Below, one piece after another: positions 16,974 to 27,285 of a DNA stretch of 32,244 bases; the first letter of the stretch is position 1; each line of letters opens with the position of its first letter. The notes beneath the pieces were generated by a model that was not told the DNA's origin, searched no databases, and saw only the letters and a list, made by a program, of their open reading frames with translations. A program made the translations under genes and the position numbers. This stretch comes from an uncultured Oscillospiraceae bacterium (GTDB lineage: Bacteria; Bacillota; Clostridia; Oscillospirales; Oscillospiraceae), in NCBI GenBank assembly GCA_947629775.1, contig CANRFA010000016.1, positions 1 to 32,244 on the forward strand. The letters run 5' to 3'.

Positions 16974-17097
16974 CTCCGGAATTTCCCGATTCTGTCCGTT
17001 GGAAGCGACGACAGATAAAACGGCAAACTGACCGAGGCGGGGCTGCGGCGCCCCGCATGTGGAATGGATGATTTTGAACAGGAAAGGGTGTCATTGC

Positions 17098-20000
17098 GTG
17101 AACGATAAACTGCTCAGACAGATCTCAACGGAGGTCGGCGAGGCGCTGAAGGAGCGGAAGCTGCCATCCCTGACCGGAAAACGGGCCGTGCGGGAAGTTC
17201 TGCGCAGTGCCGGCTTCCAGGAGGGAATCGCCTCCCTGTTCCCCATCCGGGAGCGGATCTCCTGCGCCCGGGTGCTGGAGATCTGTCTGCCTGTCATGGA
17301 GCGCCTGTCCCCCGGCGATCCGCCGGAGAAGGGCTGGGGTTCCTTCTGCTATCGGTATATCTCCGGCCTCATGTACCCGGACAACGGCTTCGCGCCCGGC
17401 GCGGAGACCTGGCGGGAGGGGGCGGAGTTCTATCTCACCGTCCTGCAGGTGCTTCTGGACCACGAGCGCCAGGCCCTGCCCTTCGATCCCATGATGGACT
17501 TCGCCTTCCTGACGGAGGAGGAGTACGGCGGCTGCGAGAAGGCGGGGGAGTACCGCCGGCTGATGGCCGCCTGGCGGAAGGAGTACGTCTACGAGCTGAT
17601 GCGTCTGGGTCTGGAGTACACCCCCTTCCGGACGCTGAGCCATATCTCCGGGGTCCACTACATCGCCATGACCGCCGCCCGGGGGCTGGCGGAGGCGGGG
17701 GTGGAGGTGGATCTGGCCCTGATCTCCGGCGCGGCCGCCGCCCACGACCTGGGCAAGTTCGGCTGCCGGCCCGGGGAGCGGGTTCCCTATCTCCACTACT
17801 ACTGGACGGACCAGTGGCTGCTGGCCCGGCGGATGGAGGGCATCAGCCACATCGCCTCCAACCACTCCACCTGGGATCTGGAGCTGGAGTCCCTGTCCGT
17901 GGAGTCCCTGCTGCTGATCTACGCGGACTTCCGCTCCAAGCAGAGCCGGGACGCGGAGGGGAAGGAGATCACCGTCTTCTTCACCCTGGACGACGCCTTC
18001 CAGGTGATCCTCTCCAAGCTGGACAACGTGGACAGCGAGAAGCGCCGCCGCTACGAGCTGGTCTACGGCAAACTCCACGACTTCGAGGACTTCATGCGCT
18101 CCCTGGGGGTGGATGTGGACCTGGCCGGCCATCCCGGCGAGCGGAAGGAGCCCAAGGATCCCGCCCTCATGGGGCCCGAGGAGACCCTGGACAGCCTGAT
18201 TCACCTCTCCGTGGAGCACAACCTGCGCCTGATGCACATGCTGTCCAACGAGCAGAAGTTCGGCAACATCATCGAGGCCGCCCGCTCCGCCAAGAGCTGG
18301 CAGCAGCTGCGGGCCTATCTGAACATCTTCGAGGAGTACTTCACCTATCTGTCCGCCCGGCAGAAGACCCAGGCGCTGTCCTTCCTCTACGAGCTGCTGG
18401 TCCACCGGGACGGCGACATCCGCCGTCAGGCCGGGGCGCTCATCGGGCAGATCATCGCCCGCTTCCACCTGGTCTACCGCAAGGAAGTACCCGCGGACGC
18501 TGAGAACGATCCGGCGGAGGAGGTGCCCTTCCTGCTCTGGGCGGAGTATCTGGAGAAGATCCTCTACCCGGACCACAAGACCACGCCTCAGCAGCGGGCC
18601 CACATCGGGTACACCCTGAAGCTGATGGTCAGCTCCATGCTCCGCTACGCCAGGCCGGGGGACGTGCCCCGCTTCCTGGGCGTGCTGCTGAAGTATTACG
18701 AGGAGCCCCAGGGCATGGACCCGGACGCGGCCTTCACCCTGCTGGACGCCATCGGGTATCTGCCACCCCAGTATTACGGGGAGGAGACCCGGGCGGTGCT
18801 GATCGAATTCGCCTCCTTCTACGCCCTGTCCGGGGATCCCCGGCTGGTGACGGCGGCCCTGGAATTCTTCCAGGAAACCCAGCGCTCCCTGCCCCGGGAG
18901 CACCCCCAGATGAAGCGCATCGCCGAGATCACCAACGACGTCCCCTGCAAGCAGCTGACCACGGTCTATCTGGTGTGCAAGATCCTCCAGCGGGCCGGCG
19001 TGTCCTGCGAGGACCTGGAGCAGATCCTCTACCACACGGACATCACCAGCGAGGTCTTTCTGGACGACCTGAAGACCGCCACCCCCTGGATGGTGAAGGT
19101 GGCCGGCGTGGAGCTGCTGCGGGATCAGGTGCTCCACGGCAACCGGGACCATATCCTGCACATCGCCACCCACTTCTCCAACCTGGTCAAGGTCTCCGAG
19201 CGGGTGGTGGTCCGGCAGACCGCCGGCGCCGCCCTCGTGCGGATTCTCAACCTGCTGCGCCGGGATCAGCGCAACGAAGTGGTGGTGGAGCTGGGCAAGG
19301 GGCTGGAGCTGGGCCAGTACCAGGTCAGCAAGTACATTCCCGAGTATCTGGGGGAAGCGGTGCTCTACCTGCACCCCAGCGAGCTGGACGAGCAGATCCT
19401 GTGGCTGAAGGAGCTGCTGGGCGCTCCCAACGACTCCGCCGTGGCCGGGGCCCTGAACACCATCGCCGTGCTGCTGCAGCACTACGCCAGCTACCGGGAC
19501 CGCTTTGAACAGAGCGAGGAGAGCTACGAGAAGCGGCGCAGAGAGCTGCTGGGCATGCTCATGCAGGGCCTGGCCCACTACCGGGTTGCGGTTCGCCAGG
19601 AAGCCATGCTGGTCATCGGGAAGCTGCTTTTCGGCTCGGATTCCCTGGACATGGAGGAGAAGGCCCGCTTTTTCAGCCTCTGCTACCGCAAGCTGCTCTT
19701 CCTGCTGGAGGAGACCCCCGGCGGAGACGGCCTCACCTTCTTCTATCGGGCCGCCGCCCTCTCCCACATCAACCGCTTCATCTCCCTCCACCGCCTGGAC
19801 CACGGTCCCTTTACCTTCCAGCCGCCCCGGCGCATCGCCTTCTTCCCGGGCACCTTCGATCCCTTCACTCTGTCGCACAAGGGCATCGTCCACGCCATCC
19901 GGGATCTGGGCTTCGAGGTCTACCTGGCCATCGACGAGTTCTCCTGGTCCAAGAAGGCCCAGCCCCACCTGATCCGCCGCCAGATTGTCAGCATGTCCGT

Positions 20001-21894
20001 GGCGGGGGACTTCCACGTGCACCTCTTCCCGGACGACATTCCGGTGAACATCGCCAACCCCCGGGACCTGAAGCGTCTGGTTTCCCTCTTCCCGGGCCGG
20101 GAGGTCTACCTGGTGGCGGGCAGCGACGTGGTGGCCAACGCCTCCTCCTACCGCAATCCCCCGGAGCCCTGGTCCATCCACCAGATGAACCACGTGATCT
20201 TCCGCCGGGACGACGCGCCGGTGTCCAATGTGCCCATCACCGGCAAGATCATTCAGCTGCAGCTGCCGCCCCATCTGGAGGACATCAGCTCCAGCCGCAT
20301 CCGGGAGAACGTGGATCTGAACCGGGATATCTCCAACTACATCGATCCCGTCATCCAGGACTACATCTATCAGAACGGCCTCTACCTGCGGGACGCCCAG
20401 AACAAGGCCCTGCTGGAGGCCAGCGAGGTGGAGTTCCGCTGGGAGGACAACCCCTCTTCGGAGCTTCTCGCCCGGCTCACCGCCTCTCTCCCCAACGGAC
20501 AGGAGATCGCCGAGCTCATGCAGCGGCAGGGGGAGCGGATCCTGATGATGGTCCCCTCGGACAACCGGGACGGAGAGCCGCTGGCCTTCGCCGCCTACCG
20601 GGCCCTGTCCGCCTCCCGGCTCTATCGGGCCCTGGGGGATCACGAACTCACCAACCGCATCCGCCTGCGCTCCGGCGGCCGGATTCTCCTCATCACCATG
20701 CTGGAGGTCCGGAAGCCCCACGTCCAGTGGGACTACACCCAGATGATGGTGACGGAGGTGCTGGCCCGGGGGCTGGAGAAGGAGTACGTCTACGCGGTGT
20801 ACTCCCCCCACAGCGGCGTTGTGACCCCCGAGACGGACGACTCCCTGAGCCGCATGGGCTTTGTGGCCCGGGAAGGGGAGCACCCCATCCGGGAAGTGGA
20901 CATGCACGCCCCCACCATCATCATCCAGAACCTGGAGACCGCCATTCAGGATCCGCTGTGTACGAACCCCAGGGTGCTGGCGGCGGTGCGCCGGGGCCGG
21001 GAGCGGATCCAGCGGGCCATGACCGGGCTCTACCCCGGGTCCCTGGTGCTGCCCTTCGCCTCGGACGTGATCCACCACCGGCTGCTGGAGAAGATCACGG
21101 ACTGCAACAACGTGCCCTCGAAGCCCACGAACCCCCGGATTCTGGGGGAGAACATGTGCGTGCCCTTCGGCAAGCTGCTGCGGGGCAAGGTGGTCCCCAA
21201 CACCGTGACCAAGACCATCCACACGGACAAGGTCTTCACGCCGGACCTGCGCACGAATACGATCGAGGCCTTCCCCAACTATTCCTCCATCCCCAACCAG
21301 GTGCGGATGATCAAGTCCTTCAACCGCCCCGTGATCCTGGTGGACGACGTGATGCATCCCGGCTTCCGCATGCGCCGCCTGGGCCCCATCCTCCAGCAGG
21401 AGGAGGTGCCGGTGCGCATGGTGCTGGTGGGCGTGCTCTCCGGCTACGGCCGGGACCTGATGCGCTCCTGGGAGCAGCCGGTGGACTGCGTCTACTACCT
21501 GCCCACCCTGCGGCAGTGGTTCGTGGAGTCCACCCTGTATCCGTTCATCGGGGGCAACACTGTGCGGCGGTACCGGCAGCCGGTCCCCGGCCTGCTGCCC
21601 GGCATCAACCACATCCTGCCCTACGCGGCCCCCGTGTGGCAGAAGGAGTGCGGCCGGGAGGCGGCGGTGCGTCTCTCCGAGGCCTGCCTGGAGGCCGCGC
21701 TGGATGTCATCGGCACCCTGGAGCGGGAGTACCGGATCCTCTACGGCCGCAACCTGACCCTCTCCCGGCTTCCGGAGGCGGTGATTCTGCCCCTGTGTCC
21801 GGACAAGGGGAACTGCCTGGCCTACGACCCCAACCTGGCCGCCTCCGTCTATCTGGAAAACGACCTGGAGCAGCTGCGCCGGCAGAACGACTGA
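17098..21894 (+). CDS. Giant multidomain protein: HD phosphohydrolase, helical repeats, NadD-like adenylyltransferase, GNAT-like, phosphoribosyltransferase-like
   Basis: A 1598-residue cytoplasmic protein without signal peptide or membrane segments. In order: an HD domain (about 175-270) with His182/His187 and the AHDLGKFG motif (His216, Asp217); a long Leu-rich helical region (about 370-890) resembling HEAT/ARM repeats; a nucleotidyltransferase domain (about 908-1095) with FFPGTFDPFTLSH (918-927, T-x-x-H/S-H variant of HxGH) and ISSSRIRE (1063-1070, the ISSTxIR motif); a GNAT-like stretch (about 1140-1290); and a phosphoribosyltransferase-like end with VILVDDVMHPGF (1412-1423), the PRPP loop. 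NadD and an HD hydrolase (YqeK) are usually separate neighbours; here both kinds are fused, which suggests pyridine- or other nucleotide metabolism. Substrates are unknown. Start GTG chosen because AGGAAAGGG precedes it; an ATG 39 bases upstream has no ribosome site. The dehydrogenase-like gene follows after 16 bases. Confidence 0.85.
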   Translation: MNDKLLRQISTEVGEALKERKLPSLTGKRAVREVLRSAGFQEGIASLFPIRERISCARVLEICLPVMERLSPGDPPEKGWGSFCYRYISGLMYPDNGFAPGAETWREGAEFYLTVLQVLLDHERQALPFDPMMDFAFLTEEEYGGCEKAGEYRRLMAAWRKEYVYELMRLGLEYTPFRTLSHISGVHYIAMTAARGLAEAGVEVDLALISGAAAAHDLGKFGCRPGERVPYLHYYWTDQWLLARRMEGISHIASNHSTWDLELESLSVESLLLIYADFRSKQSRDAEGKEITVFFTLDDAFQVILSKLDNVDSEKRRRYELVYGKLHDFEDFMRSLGVDVDLAGHPGERKEPKDPALMGPEETLDSLIHLSVEHNLRLMHMLSNEQKFGNIIEAARSAKSWQQLRAYLNIFEEYFTYLSARQKTQALSFLYELLVHRDGDIRRQAGALIGQIIARFHLVYRKEVPADAENDPAEEVPFLLWAEYLEKILYPDHKTTPQQRAHIGYTLKLMVSSMLRYARPGDVPRFLGVLLKYYEEPQGMDPDAAFTLLDAIGYLPPQYYGEETRAVLIEFASFYALSGDPRLVTAALEFFQETQRSLPREHPQMKRIAEITNDVPCKQLTTVYLVCKILQRAGVSCEDLEQILYHTDITSEVFLDDLKTATPWMVKVAGVELLRDQVLHGNRDHILHIATHFSNLVKVSERVVVRQTAGAALVRILNLLRRDQRNEVVVELGKGLELGQYQVSKYIPEYLGEAVLYLHPSELDEQILWLKELLGAPNDSAVAGALNTIAVLLQHYASYRDRFEQSEESYEKRRRELLGMLMQGLAHYRVAVRQEAMLVIGKLLFGSDSLDMEEKARFFSLCYRKLLFLLEETPGGDGLTFFYRAAALSHINRFISLHRLDHGPFTFQPPRRIAFFPGTFDPFTLSHKGIVHAIRDLGFEVYLAIDEFSWSKKAQPHLIRRQIVSMSVAGDFHVHLFPDDIPVNIANPRDLKRLVSLFPGREVYLVAGSDVVANASSYRNPPEPWSIHQMNHVIFRRDDAPVSNVPITGKIIQLQLPPHLEDISSSRIRENVDLNRDISNYIDPVIQDYIYQNGLYLRDAQNKALLEASEVEFRWEDNPSSELLARLTASLPNGQEIAELMQRQGERILMMVPSDNRDGEPLAFAAYRALSASRLYRALGDHELTNRIRLRSGGRILLITMLEVRKPHVQWDYTQMMVTEVLARGLEKEYVYAVYSPHSGVVTPETDDSLSRMGFVAREGEHPIREVDMHAPTIIIQNLETAIQDPLCTNPRVLAAVRRGRERIQRAMTGLYPGSLVLPFASDVIHHRLLEKITDCNNVPSKPTNPRILGENMCVPFGKLLRGKVVPNTVTKTIHTDKVFTPDLRTNTIEAFPNYSSIPNQVRMIKSFNRPVILVDDVMHPGFRMRRLGPILQQEEVPVRMVLVGVLSGYGRDLMRSWEQPVDCVYYLPTLRQWFVESTLYPFIGGNTVRRYRQPVPGLLPGINHILPYAAPVWQKECGREAAVRLSEACLEAALDVIGTLEREYRILYGRNLTLSRLPEAVILPLCPDKGNCLAYDPNLAASVYLENDLEQLRRQND

Positions 21895-21910
21895 GCGGGA
21901 AAGGAGCGGC

Positions 21911-23203
21911 ATGAACTTTTACTTTTACGCATATCCCGGCGGCGTACTGGCCGCTCCCCGGCCTCTGGAGGGAGAACCCCTGGAGCCGGGGCTGGCGGCC
22001 TCCCTGGAGCGCCTGGACGGAGCTTCCCTGCCGGAAAATGTCTCCGTGACCGTCCTTCTGGACCTGGATCCGATGTGGGGCCGGGGCAGCTTCCGCCCCG
22101 CCCACCCCGGCCAGCTCCTGGCGGGAAACGGCCTGGCCGCCCTGGACGGCAGCCGCCTTCCGTCCGGGGAAGAGATCCCGGAGACCATTGCCGCCGCCAT
22201 CCGGGAGGGGCGCTGCCGGGCTGTCAGCCGCGCCCGGCCCGGCTGGGAGAAGCGCCTGGCGGCCCCCGCAGCCGGGAAAAGGAAGCGCGTTCACATCATG
22301 GCCCTGGGGGACGTGGGCTCCACGATCCTCATCGGGCTCAAGGTCCTGGGGGCCGGTCTGGTGGATACCATCGGGATCTGGGACATCGACCCCAGGGTCT
22401 GTCGCCGCTGGGAGACCGAAATGGGCCAGGTCTCGCTCATCGGCCACTACGACACCTTCCCCAAGGTGGAAACCGTCCGGAAAGAAGATCTCTTCCGCTG
22501 CGACGTCTTCCTCTTCTCGGCCTCCATGGGGGTTCCCCCGGTGGGGTCCGGGGTGCGGGACGTGCGCATGGCCCAGTACGAACGCAACGCCAGGCTGGTG
22601 GCGGAGTACGCCCGCATGGCCCGGGCGGCGGGCTTCCAGGGGCTGTGGGCCCAGGTTTCGGACCCGGTGGATCCCCTGGCCCGCATGGCCTACGTGGCAA
22701 GCAACCGGGACGAAACTGGCGCCTGGGACGGAAAAGGTCTCTGGCCGGAGCAGGTCCAGGGCTACGGTCTCGGCGTCATGAACGCCCGGGCGGTGTACTA
22801 CGCCCGGCAGGAGCCCCGGTTCGCCTCCTTCCTGACGGAGGGACGCTCCTTCGGGCCTCACGGCCAGGAGCTGGTGGTGGCGAACTCCGTAGAACACTAC
22901 GACGACGCCCTCTCCCGGGAGCTGACGGAGCGGACGGTCACGGCCAATCTGGCCATGCGGGAGCTGGGCTTCAAGCCCTATGTGGCCCCCGCTCTCTCCT
23001 CGGCGGCGCTCTCCATTCTGCAGACCATCGCCGGGGACTGGCACTGCGGGTCCGTCTTCCTGGACGGCATCTACATGGGGGTCCGCAACCGGTACACGTC
23101 CCTGGGCGTGGAGACGGAGCTGCTGCCCCGGATTCCGGAGGATCTCTTCGGCCGCATCGAGGAGGCCGCCGGGGCGCTGAAGAACATTCCCCTTCCGGAC
23201 TGA
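21911..23203 (+). CDS. Lactate/malate dehydrogenase-like NAD-binding protein with novel N-terminal extension
   Basis: Residues ~126-430 follow the LDH/MDH fold. The NAD loop is ALGDVGST (131-138), followed by acidic WDID at 157-160 at the end of strand two. YERNARLVAEYA corresponds to the helix before the active site, SDPVDPLA (250-257) corresponds to NPVD, and GPHGQE (315-320) keeps the catalytic His (317) of the usual GEHGDS. The active-site loop arginines are not placed where typical LDHs have them, so the substrate is probably not lactate. Residues 1-125 (many Pro and Gly, no known fold) are an added domain. The gene lies 16 bases after the giant protein and 16 before ispE, with AAAGGAG before its ATG. 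Constant pairing with the giant protein is expected but not testable here. Start and end are well supported. Confidence 0.82.
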   Translation: MNFYFYAYPGGVLAAPRPLEGEPLEPGLAASLERLDGASLPENVSVTVLLDLDPMWGRGSFRPAHPGQLLAGNGLAALDGSRLPSGEEIPETIAAAIREGRCRAVSRARPGWEKRLAAPAAGKRKRVHIMALGDVGSTILIGLKVLGAGLVDTIGIWDIDPRVCRRWETEMGQVSLIGHYDTFPKVETVRKEDLFRCDVFLFSASMGVPPVGSGVRDVRMAQYERNARLVAEYARMARAAGFQGLWAQVSDPVDPLARMAYVASNRDETGAWDGKGLWPEQVQGYGLGVMNARAVYYARQEPRFASFLTEGRSFGPHGQELVVANSVEHYDDALSRELTERTVTANLAMRELGFKPYVAPALSSAALSILQTIAGDWHCGSVFLDGIYMGVRNRYTSLGVETELLPRIPEDLFGRIEEAAGALKNIPLPD

Positions 23204-24940: not shown

Positions 24941-25229
24941 ACTTCCTCAGATTTATAGCCTCGCGCTCCGTAAAGTGCTCAAAAATGTTCTGCTTTTAGG
25001 CATAACACATCAATTTTATGCACTTTTCTGCTCTAGTAGCGCCTTGTATGAGAGAACTCGTGCGAGGTGATATTATAGCCTCGCAGGGGAAATATTAGAT
25101 ATATTACAACCCACCTTAAAGAGGGCTATAATATGTGCTCCTATGCCAAGAAGGTCATTTTTTCGCCAGCAATATACGCCAAATCAGTCACATTCAATGG
25201 TGCGAGGCTATAAAAATCGTAGAAGATTG
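24941..25229. repeat. AT-rich non-coding island with inverted TTTATAGCCTCGC repeats (MITE-like candidate)
   Basis: This segment is plainly AT-rich in an otherwise very GC-rich window and has no supported gene. TTATAGCCTCGC occurs at 24953-24964 and 25073-25084 and inverted at 25202-25213. The outer pair, extended to roughly CTTC(N)TTTATAGCCTCGC at 24942 and its complement ending GAAG at 25225, acts like imperfect terminal inverted repeats. The middle copy forms a hairpin with GCGAGG at 25062-25067. A further inverted pair AAAGTGC/GCACTTT lies at 24972-25026. A TTACAA-17-TATAAT promoter-like sequence lies inside. It could be a small non-autonomous mobile element or a regulatory RNA/DNA region; the origin is inferred. 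Confidence 0.5.
25104..25132 (+). promoter_or_regulatory. Promoter-like sequence inside the AT-rich island
   Basis: TTACAA (25104-25109) and a perfect TATAAT (25127-25132) with 17-base spacing, pointing toward the ABC operon. It may produce a short RNA over the right half of the island or a longer transcript of the operon. Confidence 0.5.
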
Positions 25230-25246
25230 GGGTTCCGCCATCTTGA
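25230..25246 (+). repeat. Right copy of the 17-base direct repeat
   Basis: GGGTTCCGCCATCTTGA, partner of 24924-24940. Its last four bases form part of the TTGACA -35 box; the left copy has CTGAAC there and would not serve as a promoter. Confidence 0.8.
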
Positions 25247-25271
25247 CAGCGCCCCATAAACATACTACAAT
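25243..25271 (+). promoter_or_regulatory. Strong promoter of the ABC importer operon
   Basis: TTGACA (25243-25248) and TACAAT (25266-25271) with 17-base spacing, a near-consensus housekeeping promoter, giving a leader of about 95 bases before the lipoprotein ATG. Confidence 0.85.
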
Positions 25272-25286
25272 GCTTCCGGATCTGCA

Positions 25287-25333
25287 GGAACGCGGATCGG
25301 CGCCTGCATGGGGAAAGAAAGGCGCCCGGTTCC
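25287..25333 (+). other. Hairpin in the 5' leader of the ABC operon
   Basis: GGAAC (25287-25291) pairs with GTTCC (25329-25333), and the inner GGCGCC (25299-25304) pairs with GGCGCC (25321-25326). The stem has no T tract, so it is a leader structure rather than a terminator. No known riboswitch consensus was recognised. Confidence 0.4.
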
Positions 25334-25371
25334 CGCTCTTCCGCACATGTACGCAGAAAGGAAGCCTTTCA

Positions 25372-26511
25372 ATGAAAAAGATACTCTCTCTCGCCCTGGC
25401 GGCAGCCATGCTGGTCACCCTGCTGGCGGCCTGCGGCGGCGGAACTTCCAGCTCCGGCGGGGCTGCTAGCTCCGGTTCCACATCCGGCAGCGCCTCGGAC
25501 GCCTCTTCCGCCGGATCCTCTTCCGGCAGCGGCTCGGATGCCTCCTCCTCCGCCGGTTCCAGCTCTTCGGCCGGCTCCTCCAGTGGAGCGGCCAGCAGCG
25601 CTGCCTCCGGCGAGCTCCCGGATTTCATGGTTCTCTCCGGTCCCACTGGCGTGGGCGCGGCCAAGCTGCTGAAGGACCATGACGCGGATCCCACCGCCAG
25701 TTCCATCGCCAGCTACACGGTAGCGGCCGAGAACGACGAAGTGACCGCCGCCCTCATCAACGGGGACGCGGATATCGCGGCGGTAGCCACCAATGTGGCG
25801 GCGAATCTCTCCGCCAAGACAGACGGCGGCGTTGAGGTACTGGCCGTCAACACGCTGGGCGTGCTCTACATCCTGGAGAAGGGCGACACCGTCCACAGCA
25901 TGGCGGATCTGGCCGGCCAGACCGTCTACGCTCCCTCCACCGCCCGGGGCGCCAACCCGGAGTTCATCCTCAACCATCTGCTGAACCAGAACGGGGTGGA
26001 TCCCGCTCAGGTGGATCTGCAGTGGATGACGCCCCAGGAGATCACGGCGAAGATCACCTCTTCGGACGCCGGCATCTGCATGCTGCCCGTGCCCGCTGCC
26101 ACCGCCCTCATGGTGCAGGACAGCGCGGTCCGGCAGGCCATTTCCCTGACCGAGGCCTGGGATGAGCAGAATGACAACGGCCTCGCCATGGGCTGCGTGG
26201 TGGCCCGCACGGAGTATCTGGAGGCCAATCCCCAGATGGTGGAGAAATTCCTGGCCAAATATGAGAAGTCCATCGCTTACATGAACGACGAGGCCAACCG
26301 GGAGGATGCCGCCGCCATGGTGGCGGATCTGGGCATCGCCCCCAACGCCAAGGTGGCCGCCGCGGCCATTCCCCAGTGCAGCCTCACCTATCTGGCCGGC
26401 GAGGACATGAAGTACACCCTGGAGGGCTACTACCAGGTGCTCTTCCAGGCGGATCCCGCGTCCATCGGGGGAGCCATGCCCTACGATACCTTCTACTACG
26501 GCGTGAACTGA
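25372..26511 (+). CDS. ABC transporter substrate-binding lipoprotein (NMT1/SsuA-like)
   Basis: The 379-residue protein starts with a lipoprotein signal (MKKILSLALAAAMLVT) and the lipobox LAAC, with Cys21 as the lipid anchor. A long Ser/Gly/Ala-rich linker (about 22-80) follows, then a type 2 periplasmic-binding domain with GVGAAKLL near the start and an AALINGDADIAAVATN segment typical of NMT1/TauA/SsuA-type proteins. It should catch a small solute outside the membrane and deliver it to the adjacent permease. The ligand (sulfonate, nitrate, thiamine precursor or another small molecule) cannot be told. The ATG has AAAGGAAG before it. The same frame is open for 79 codons upstream, but that part spans the promoter and has no signal peptide. 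Confidence 0.9.
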   Translation: MKKILSLALAAAMLVTLLAACGGGTSSSGGAASSGSTSGSASDASSAGSSSGSGSDASSSAGSSSSAGSSSGAASSAASGELPDFMVLSGPTGVGAAKLLKDHDADPTASSIASYTVAAENDEVTAALINGDADIAAVATNVAANLSAKTDGGVEVLAVNTLGVLYILEKGDTVHSMADLAGQTVYAPSTARGANPEFILNHLLNQNGVDPAQVDLQWMTPQEITAKITSSDAGICMLPVPAATALMVQDSAVRQAISLTEAWDEQNDNGLAMGCVVARTEYLEANPQMVEKFLAKYEKSIAYMNDEANREDAAAMVADLGIAPNAKVAAAAIPQCSLTYLAGEDMKYTLEGYYQVLFQADPASIGGAMPYDTFYYGVN

Positions 26512-26514
26512 CCG

Positions 26515-27285
26515 ATGAACCATTCCCCGAACAACCCCATCCGCAAGCTGCTGCCCCCGGCCTTCTGGCTGGGGGCCTGGCAGCTTGCCGCTTTTCTGGT
26601 GGACCGGAGCGTGAGCGGACGGGGCAACGAACTGCTGCTGCCCTATCCGCTCACCGTGGCCCGCCGCCTCCTGGAGCTGGCGGGAGAGGGGGCCTTCTGG
26701 GGGAGCATTTTCGCCACCCTGGGCCGGATTCTGGCCGGCATGGTCCTTGGCACCCTGGCGGGCGCTCTGCTGGCGGCCCTCACCTGCGCCCTCCGCTGGG
26801 CGGACGCCCTGCTCTCCCCGGCCATACGGGTGGTGCGGGCGGCGCCGGTGGTGTCCTTCATCCTGCTGGTGCTGCTGTGGACCGGCAAGAGCACCGTGCC
26901 GGTGGTGATTTCCGCTCTGATGGTGCTGCCGGTGATCTGGGGGGCCGTGGGCCAGGGAATCCGCTCCGTGGACCCGAAGCTGCTGGAACTGGCCCGGGCC
27001 TACCGCTTCGGGCGCTGGAAGACGCTGCGGCTTGTCTATCTGCCCTCCCTGGCGCCCTCCTTTAAGGCGGCGGCCGCCACCTCCCTGGGACTGGCCTGGA
27101 AGTCCGGGGTGGCGGCGGAGGTGCTGTGTCTGCCCGAGCGGTCCATAGGCTTTCACATCTACCGGAGCCGGCAGTACCTGGAGACGCCGGAGCTGTTTGC
27201 CTGGACCGTGATGGTCGTGGCCCTCTCCCTGCTGCTGGAGGGGCTGCTGCGGCGGTTCTGGGGCGGAAAGGAGCGAGGCGGATGA
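26515..27285 (+). CDS. ABC transporter permease (BPD/SsuC-like)
   Basis: A 256-residue inner-membrane subunit with about six hydrophobic segments and the EAA-type cytoplasmic loop [29 protein letters not shown] (about 160-188), which docks onto the ATPase. The N-terminus (about 1-30) is short. The ATG is 3 bases after the lipoprotein stop, with no clear ribosome site of its own, so translation is probably coupled. Its stop overlaps the ATPase start (ATGA). Confidence 0.9.

Follow-up and report, generated by a model that had tools for sequence, protein, structure and literature searches.

A giant protein joining HD, HEAT-repeat, NadD-like and PRTase-like domains, and two redox partner genes, in an uncultured Oscillospiraceae bacterium: a candidate system for an NAD-like nucleotide

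The window, the whole stretch of 32,244 bp that was analysed (bases 1-32244 of contig C16 in a 3.07-Mb genome of 204 contigs that is 95% complete), encodes a giant protein, of a kind carried by some anaerobic Clostridia, in which known enzyme families are combined in an apparently undescribed architecture, and which is found with two apparently undescribed partners, a dehydrogenase-like protein and a flavoprotein, that the earlier note on this DNA overlooked. The earlier note read the chain as several enzymes in one, and this reading is upheld for four domains (HD, HEAT, NMNAT and PRTase), which are supported by segment scans and conserved motif residues. We tentatively favour, at somewhat less than even probability, the interpretation that the giant is a scaffolded enzyme that would make (PRTase, then adenylyltransferase) and remove (HD) an NAD-like dinucleotide, which the redox partners would use or mature. 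No single Pfam or NCBIfam model covers the chain, and no description of it was found in the open-access titles and abstract openings searched; subscription papers may describe parts of it. The features are as follows:

17098..21894, + strand: giant protein gene, 1,598 aa, GTG start, uninterrupted frame, with 38 other giants of more than 1,400 aa
17515..18147, + strand: phosphohydrolase domain of the HD type, aligned residues 140-350, with Pfam HD in 13 of 14 members and invariant ligands
18145..19812, + strand: helical-repeat region of HEAT type, residues 350-905, with HEAT in 8 of 14 members
19810..20412, + strand: NadD-like nucleotidyltransferase domain, residues 905-1105, with GTFDPFTLSH, DEFSWSK and ISSSRIR
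20395..20967, + strand: rapidly diverging linker domain that may be a degenerate GNAT, residues 1100-1290
20950..21597, + strand: type I PRTase-like domain (residues 1285-1500), carrying PNTVTK at 1367-1372 and, as PRPP loop, VILVDDVMHPG at 1412-1422
21595..21891, + strand: C-terminal extension (residues 1500-1598) that includes conserved positions
21911..23203, + strand: gene 2, 430 aa, lactate/malate dehydrogenase-like and extended at the N terminus, 16 bp past the giant

The frame of the giant opens with GTG at 17098, preceded by a Shine-Dalgarno-like AGGAAAGGG at 17080-17088, and its stop codon ends at 21894; the ATG of one homologue (L007) aligns with this start. When the same architecture was sought in other genomes, as the earlier note had proposed, 38 further giants of more than 1,400 aa were found, 34-72% identical to that of the window, and because a chain of this length recurs, an assembly or frame artefact is ruled out. 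The alignment of 39 giants, drawn from those fetched as loci, omits three partial sequences (L006, L007 and L009), one with an N stretch (L165) and the second copies within the same genome (L114, L164, L166, L167, L172 and L173), and includes L018 without its start; the segment alignments use 14 of 17 giants, the same three partial sequences being omitted, and the counts of Pfam matches among the 14 include E values up to 0.5. The four motifs on which the earlier note relied lie where it had placed them: HDLGK at residues 216-220, GTFDPFTLSH at 918-927, ISSSRIR at 1063-1069 and VILVDDVMHPG at 1412-1422. An open frame of 1,595 aa on the - strand (17125-21912), probably a high-GC shadow frame, covers nearly the whole gene and was rejected as the gene itself, the homologues having been found with the + frame. 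Gene fission of the giant in another genome (G811) was also considered, but an N stretch separates its two parts and no fission call is possible.

The giant is patchily distributed. It is present in 3 of 295 genomes sampled from the order of the window and 8 of 398 genomes of the phylum (E limit 1e-10 in both), and in 73 of 217 genomes of the family of Mogibacterium (Anaerovoracaceae in the NCBI taxonomy; E limit 1e-20 for giant and gene 2). A ninth hit among the 398 (G322) was judged by eye to be an ordinary NadD of 217 aa, so the count stands at eight. Named carriers include Pseudoflavonifractor, Lawsonibacter, Mogibacterium timidum and Acetoanaerobium noterae; other phyla were covered by a pattern scan, which reaches close relatives.

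Only the adenylyltransferase passes its Pfam cut-off in the window protein alone (22.3 against 21 bits), and for this reason 14 giants were aligned by segment; the HD and PRTase assignments rest on homologues and conserved motif residues because both domains are weak or absent in the window protein by itself. Pfam HD matches 13 of the 14 (best E 2.3e-6). Against a cut-off of 22 bits, the window protein alone scores 12.5 (E 0.19), one homologue (G197) exceeds it with 28.3, and another (G380) falls slightly under it with 20.6. Six positions (H182, H216, D217, H233, H256 and D277) are invariant in 39/39 giants, as is K220, and they conform to H...HD...H...H...D, which we take to be the metal-ligand pattern of the HD superfamily of metal-dependent phosphohydrolases. 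Pfam PRTase matches 7 of the 14 (best E 7.1e-5) and was not found in the window protein, either at full length or as a member of the segment alignment; in two other full-length giants (L010 and L025) the matches are under the cut-off, at 13.5 and 19.4 against 26.3 bits. In the PRPP loop, D1416 is present in 38/39 giants and position 1417 is D or E in all 39, and N1368 and T1369 are invariant in 39/39. Matches of both profiles to the PDB are only marginal, the best being 0.036 for HD and 0.21 for PRTase.

The HD and PRTase proteins of three carrier genomes were then compared with these profiles, each set serving as the control for the other (one HD locus, L069, a frame of 9 aa, was omitted). 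The HD profile gave a median score of 24.3 for HD proteins versus 15.2 for PRTases, and the PRTase profile a median of 26.2 for 24 PRTases versus 14.8 for 29 HD controls, medians to be read with the overlap of single scores, the best from the wrong set being 23.3 and 22.5. The HD motif is covered in 24 of 29 HD proteins aligned to the HD profile, and 23 of 24 PRTases align to the PRTase profile over the PRPP loop. A special kinship of the HD domain to YqeK, which the earlier note had brought into the comparison, does not emerge: with one giant HD profile set against single sequences, the NadD-YqeK protein of the same genome ranks 23 of 30 by hhalign (score 17.6, best 42.3), its alignment being the longest in the set (147 columns, 29% identity), and 26 of the 29 listed by hmmsearch (E 3.5, best 2.9e-6), where a second YqeK-like protein (L072, named by eye) ranks 16 (E 0.15). 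Descent of the HD domain from YqeK is thus unsupported, the low ranks agreeing in both comparisons.

The adenylyltransferase domain scores best with NadD models and structures. NCBIfam NadD models match the giant at E down to 1.8e-9, far under their equivalog cut-offs (best 37 against 315 bits; TIGR00482 30.6 against 112.45), and NadD structures, one of them the top match, are found in the PDB with the family profile (best E 6.2e-9). The nucleotidyltransferase motifs GTFDP...H and ISST.IR are present; nine of their residues (G918, D921, P922, F923, H927, S1064, S1065, I1068 and R1069) and five of DEFSWSK (D946, E947, S949, W950 and K952) are invariant in 39/39 giants. The catalytic positions of the HD and adenylyltransferase domains, whose loss among homologues the earlier note had named as fatal to its reading, are therefore conserved without exception. 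Like phosphopantetheine adenylyltransferase (CoaD), the giant has T or S first in the motif, and its profile finds many CoaD structures with its N-terminal part; the matches that cover the whole domain, including ISST.IR, are to NadD. The altered motif (T..SH in place of HxGH), from which the earlier note drew a possible difference in substrate, loses this meaning: position 924 is T in 9/39 and S in 30/39 giants, position 926 is S in 20/39 and G in 19/39, and the CoaD of the same genome (contig C2; named by eye, domain by Pfam) carries T..GH, as VTLGH, at the equivalent place.

The genome also encodes, on contig C44, a fusion of NadD and YqeK of 427 aa (L002:1432-2715; names by eye, both domains by Pfam), which answers the earlier question of separate nadD and yqeK genes: both are there, in one protein, in addition to CoaD. 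The giant is therefore not the genome's only NadD, and the presence of these genes makes a specialised role more likely than one in housekeeping NAD synthesis. Like this fusion and that of JCVI-Syn3A (JCVISYN3A_0380), the giant combines an adenylyltransferase of NadD type with an HD hydrolase in a single polypeptide; unlike them, it has the opposite domain order with about 550 repeat residues between the two domains, an HD domain that is not YqeK-like by profile, additional GNAT-like and PRTase-like domains, and two redox partners. In a published study, the YqeK HD domain fused to NadD in JCVI-Syn3A is described as cleaving NaAD and cytosine/uracil analogues, and a proofreading role is given to NadD with an attached HD domain (PMC9426524).

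These precedents, with the NadD affinity of the adenylyltransferase, speak for the foremost alternative, in which the giant would be a salvage or quality-control enzyme of ordinary NAD metabolism that rebuilds NaMN or NaAD from precursors, its HD domain removing faulty dinucleotides as in NadD-YqeK fusions and its partners repairing or recycling damaged NAD(P)H. We consider it unlikely, as the genome already has a fusion of the NadD-YqeK type, the HD domain of the giant is not close to YqeK, and presence in so few of the phylum's genomes and in about a third of one family's would be odd for basic quality control.

Between the HD and adenylyltransferase domains lie some 550 residues of HEAT-type repeats, matched by Pfam HEAT in 8 of 14 giants (best E 1e-5) and weakly by the HEAT repeats of the ribosome-stall sensor GCN1 in 5 of 14 (best 0.0047); a profile search of their alignment against the PDB gave no useful match. 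Repeats of this type are often scaffolds for protein binding, and they lend something to the idea that the giant is a sensor or regulator, in which NAD status, PRPP or a dinucleotide would be the nucleotide signal that the catalytic domains bind or turn over and whose state the repeats relay to partner proteins. We rank this idea next, as improbable: the invariance of the HD and adenylyltransferase catalytic positions in 39 giants goes beyond what a pure sensor would need, and the partner genes look like those of enzymes. The GNAT-like domain claimed in the earlier note fares less well than its neighbours, for Pfam GNAT matches two of 14 giants weakly (best E 0.025), and neither a PDB profile match for the segment nor, by eye, an acetyl-CoA loop in its alignment was found; identity to the window's segment is 19-44%.

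Gene 2, which follows the giant and has a Shine-Dalgarno-like AAAGGAG at 21900-21906, is related to dehydrogenases. Its alignment uses 10 of 13 sequences (L029, L036 and L038 omitted), of which 9 match Pfam Ldh_1_N (best 5.6e-9), the window's own being the single member without a Pfam match; the latter matches the NCBIfam L-lactate dehydrogenase model at 0.0088, far under the NCBIfam cut-offs. The profile of gene 2 finds the LDH-like chain MGS-M5 at 2.9e-7 and, from 8.2e-7 on, named lactate dehydrogenases; the matches lie mainly in the NAD-binding half. R293 and H317, which we take to be LDH active-site positions, are invariant in 10/10 members, and D251 and M290 align with the Asn and Asp of the matched chain, Met being present in 10/10 and standing, presumably, at the Asp of the LDH proton relay. 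Gene 2 thus resembles L-lactate/malate dehydrogenases in its NAD-binding domain and in the Arg and His, and differs from them in having Asp for Asn, Met for Asp and an extra N-terminal region; with Met at the relay position, it may not be an ordinary dehydrogenase.

Gene 3 encodes a two-domain flavoprotein of the FMN-reductase type, with FMN_red in 12/12 members (best 4e-20; 12 of 13 sequences, L049 omitted) and four invariant Cys at 210, 213, 218 and 227. These characters are shared with NADPH-dependent FMN reductases and iron-sulphur flavoproteins, from which it differs by some 160 additional N-terminal residues that have no match; the spacing of the Cys presumably also differs from that of iron-sulphur flavoproteins. 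Its whole profile has no match in the PDB. In the genome of the window, gene 3 (L046) lies on contig C4, between alpha/beta-hydrolase-like and DUF362-like genes on the same strand (neighbours named by eye).

Of 24 loci with flanks, 20 have gene 2 behind the giant and in the same orientation, and 18 of the 24 have gene 3 behind it as well. The 24 are L008, L010, L025, L026-L034 and L164-L175, of which the last 12 were picked after the results of the family survey, two genomes among them (G747 and G811) for missing gene 2. Gene 2 does not follow the giant in L010, L164 and L165, which belong to the Mogibacterium clade, or in L028 (G326), where the genes are elsewhere; in L172 and L173 it follows and gene 3 does not. 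Frames called with the simple ORF picker are antisense in some high-GC loci (the window and L033), and gene 2 of L033, where the wrong strand was called, was counted apart from it. The next gene after gene 2 in the window is ispE. Beyond genes 2 and 3, the neighbours of the giant are common only to small groups of loci; a CoaBC-like gene is directly upstream on the same strand in L010, L164, L165 and L166 (L010 and L165 by eye, the others by BLAST).

Among the 398 genomes of the phylum, the giant and both partner genes are confined to one set of eight that all carry the three, with differing E limits (1e-10 for the giant, 1e-5 and 1e-20 for the partners) and with partly shared descent (three carriers in family f34, two in f61). 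As the genes are not all linked in the genome of the window (gene 3 on C4) or in G326 (genes 2 and 3 on C29), their co-occurrence is more than physical linkage. Of the 217 genomes of the Mogibacterium family, 73 have the giant, 71 have gene 2 and 69 have both (Fisher p 5e-49, which ignores shared descent); gene 2 occurs without the giant in G768 (34% identical, in a frame of 658 aa) and G893 (a fragment), and the giant without gene 2 in G687 (M. timidum), G747, G811 and G894 (a partial giant). The search for gene 3 covered 398 + 12 genomes, and in M. timidum gene 3 is absent as well as gene 2. The pairwise distances of the three proteins correlate in 12 genomes (r 0.79-0.86), as shared descent alone could cause, and nearest neighbours by distance agree only partly among the three genes. 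That the giant is nearly always accompanied by two redox enzymes suggests a dedicated pathway for an NAD-like nucleotide; genes that occur together need not share a pathway, and the Mogibacterium clade, in which similar giants (G687, G747 and G811) persist without the dehydrogenase, and in G687 without the flavoprotein, speaks against strict dependence.

No match to the giant was found in phage records, none to exact peptide patterns from its C-terminal 694 residues in viral contigs, and no PADLOC family at E up to 0.01 for the four proteins searched, two of them giants and two of them partners; a phage, plasmid or defence origin was rejected, the sole "plasmid" hit being probably chromosomal. 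That hit, pTPELB2 of Acetoanaerobium noterae (NZ_CP154629.1, L025), is a circular record of 2.63 Mb. NAD-targeting defence is common, and the patchy presence and mostly differing flanking genes would fit a conflict system such as phage defence through an altered nucleotide cofactor, but with these searches empty and with ispE and rlmL-like genes among the recognised neighbours in the window, such a system is very improbable. Further downstream (25135-27285), genes for an NMT1/THI5-like binding protein and an ABC permease form a likely uptake operon.

The interpretation tentatively preferred here, a multifunctional nucleotide enzyme on a helical-repeat scaffold, can be set out step by step, with the reactions, their direction and order, the substrates and the three-protein pathway all predicted from family membership. 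The PRTase-like domain would join a base or base-like compound to the ribose 5-phosphate of PRPP, giving a mononucleotide; the NadD-like domain would adenylate it to an NAD-like dinucleotide; the N-terminal HD domain may hydrolyse or proofread the product of the same chain; and the HEAT repeats may keep the sites close to one another or dock partners. As members of families that use NAD and flavin, the proteins of genes 2 and 3 would take the giant's product as substrate or work together with it, in redox steps that mature or use the nucleotide. A bolder version, in which the three genes would supply the whole pathway of an as yet undescribed dinucleotide cofactor resembling NAD, which the giant would both remove and make, from PRPP, ATP and a non-nicotinate base, while the flavoprotein sets its redox state and the modified LDH-like enzyme is its dedicated user, is doubtful, and we place it below the salvage and sensor interpretations.

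A protein of about 1,600 residues that no model covers is thus carried by 73 of the 217 sampled genomes of the Mogibacterium family, and its invariant active sites and two near-constant redox partners make it a testable candidate for new nucleotide-cofactor chemistry.
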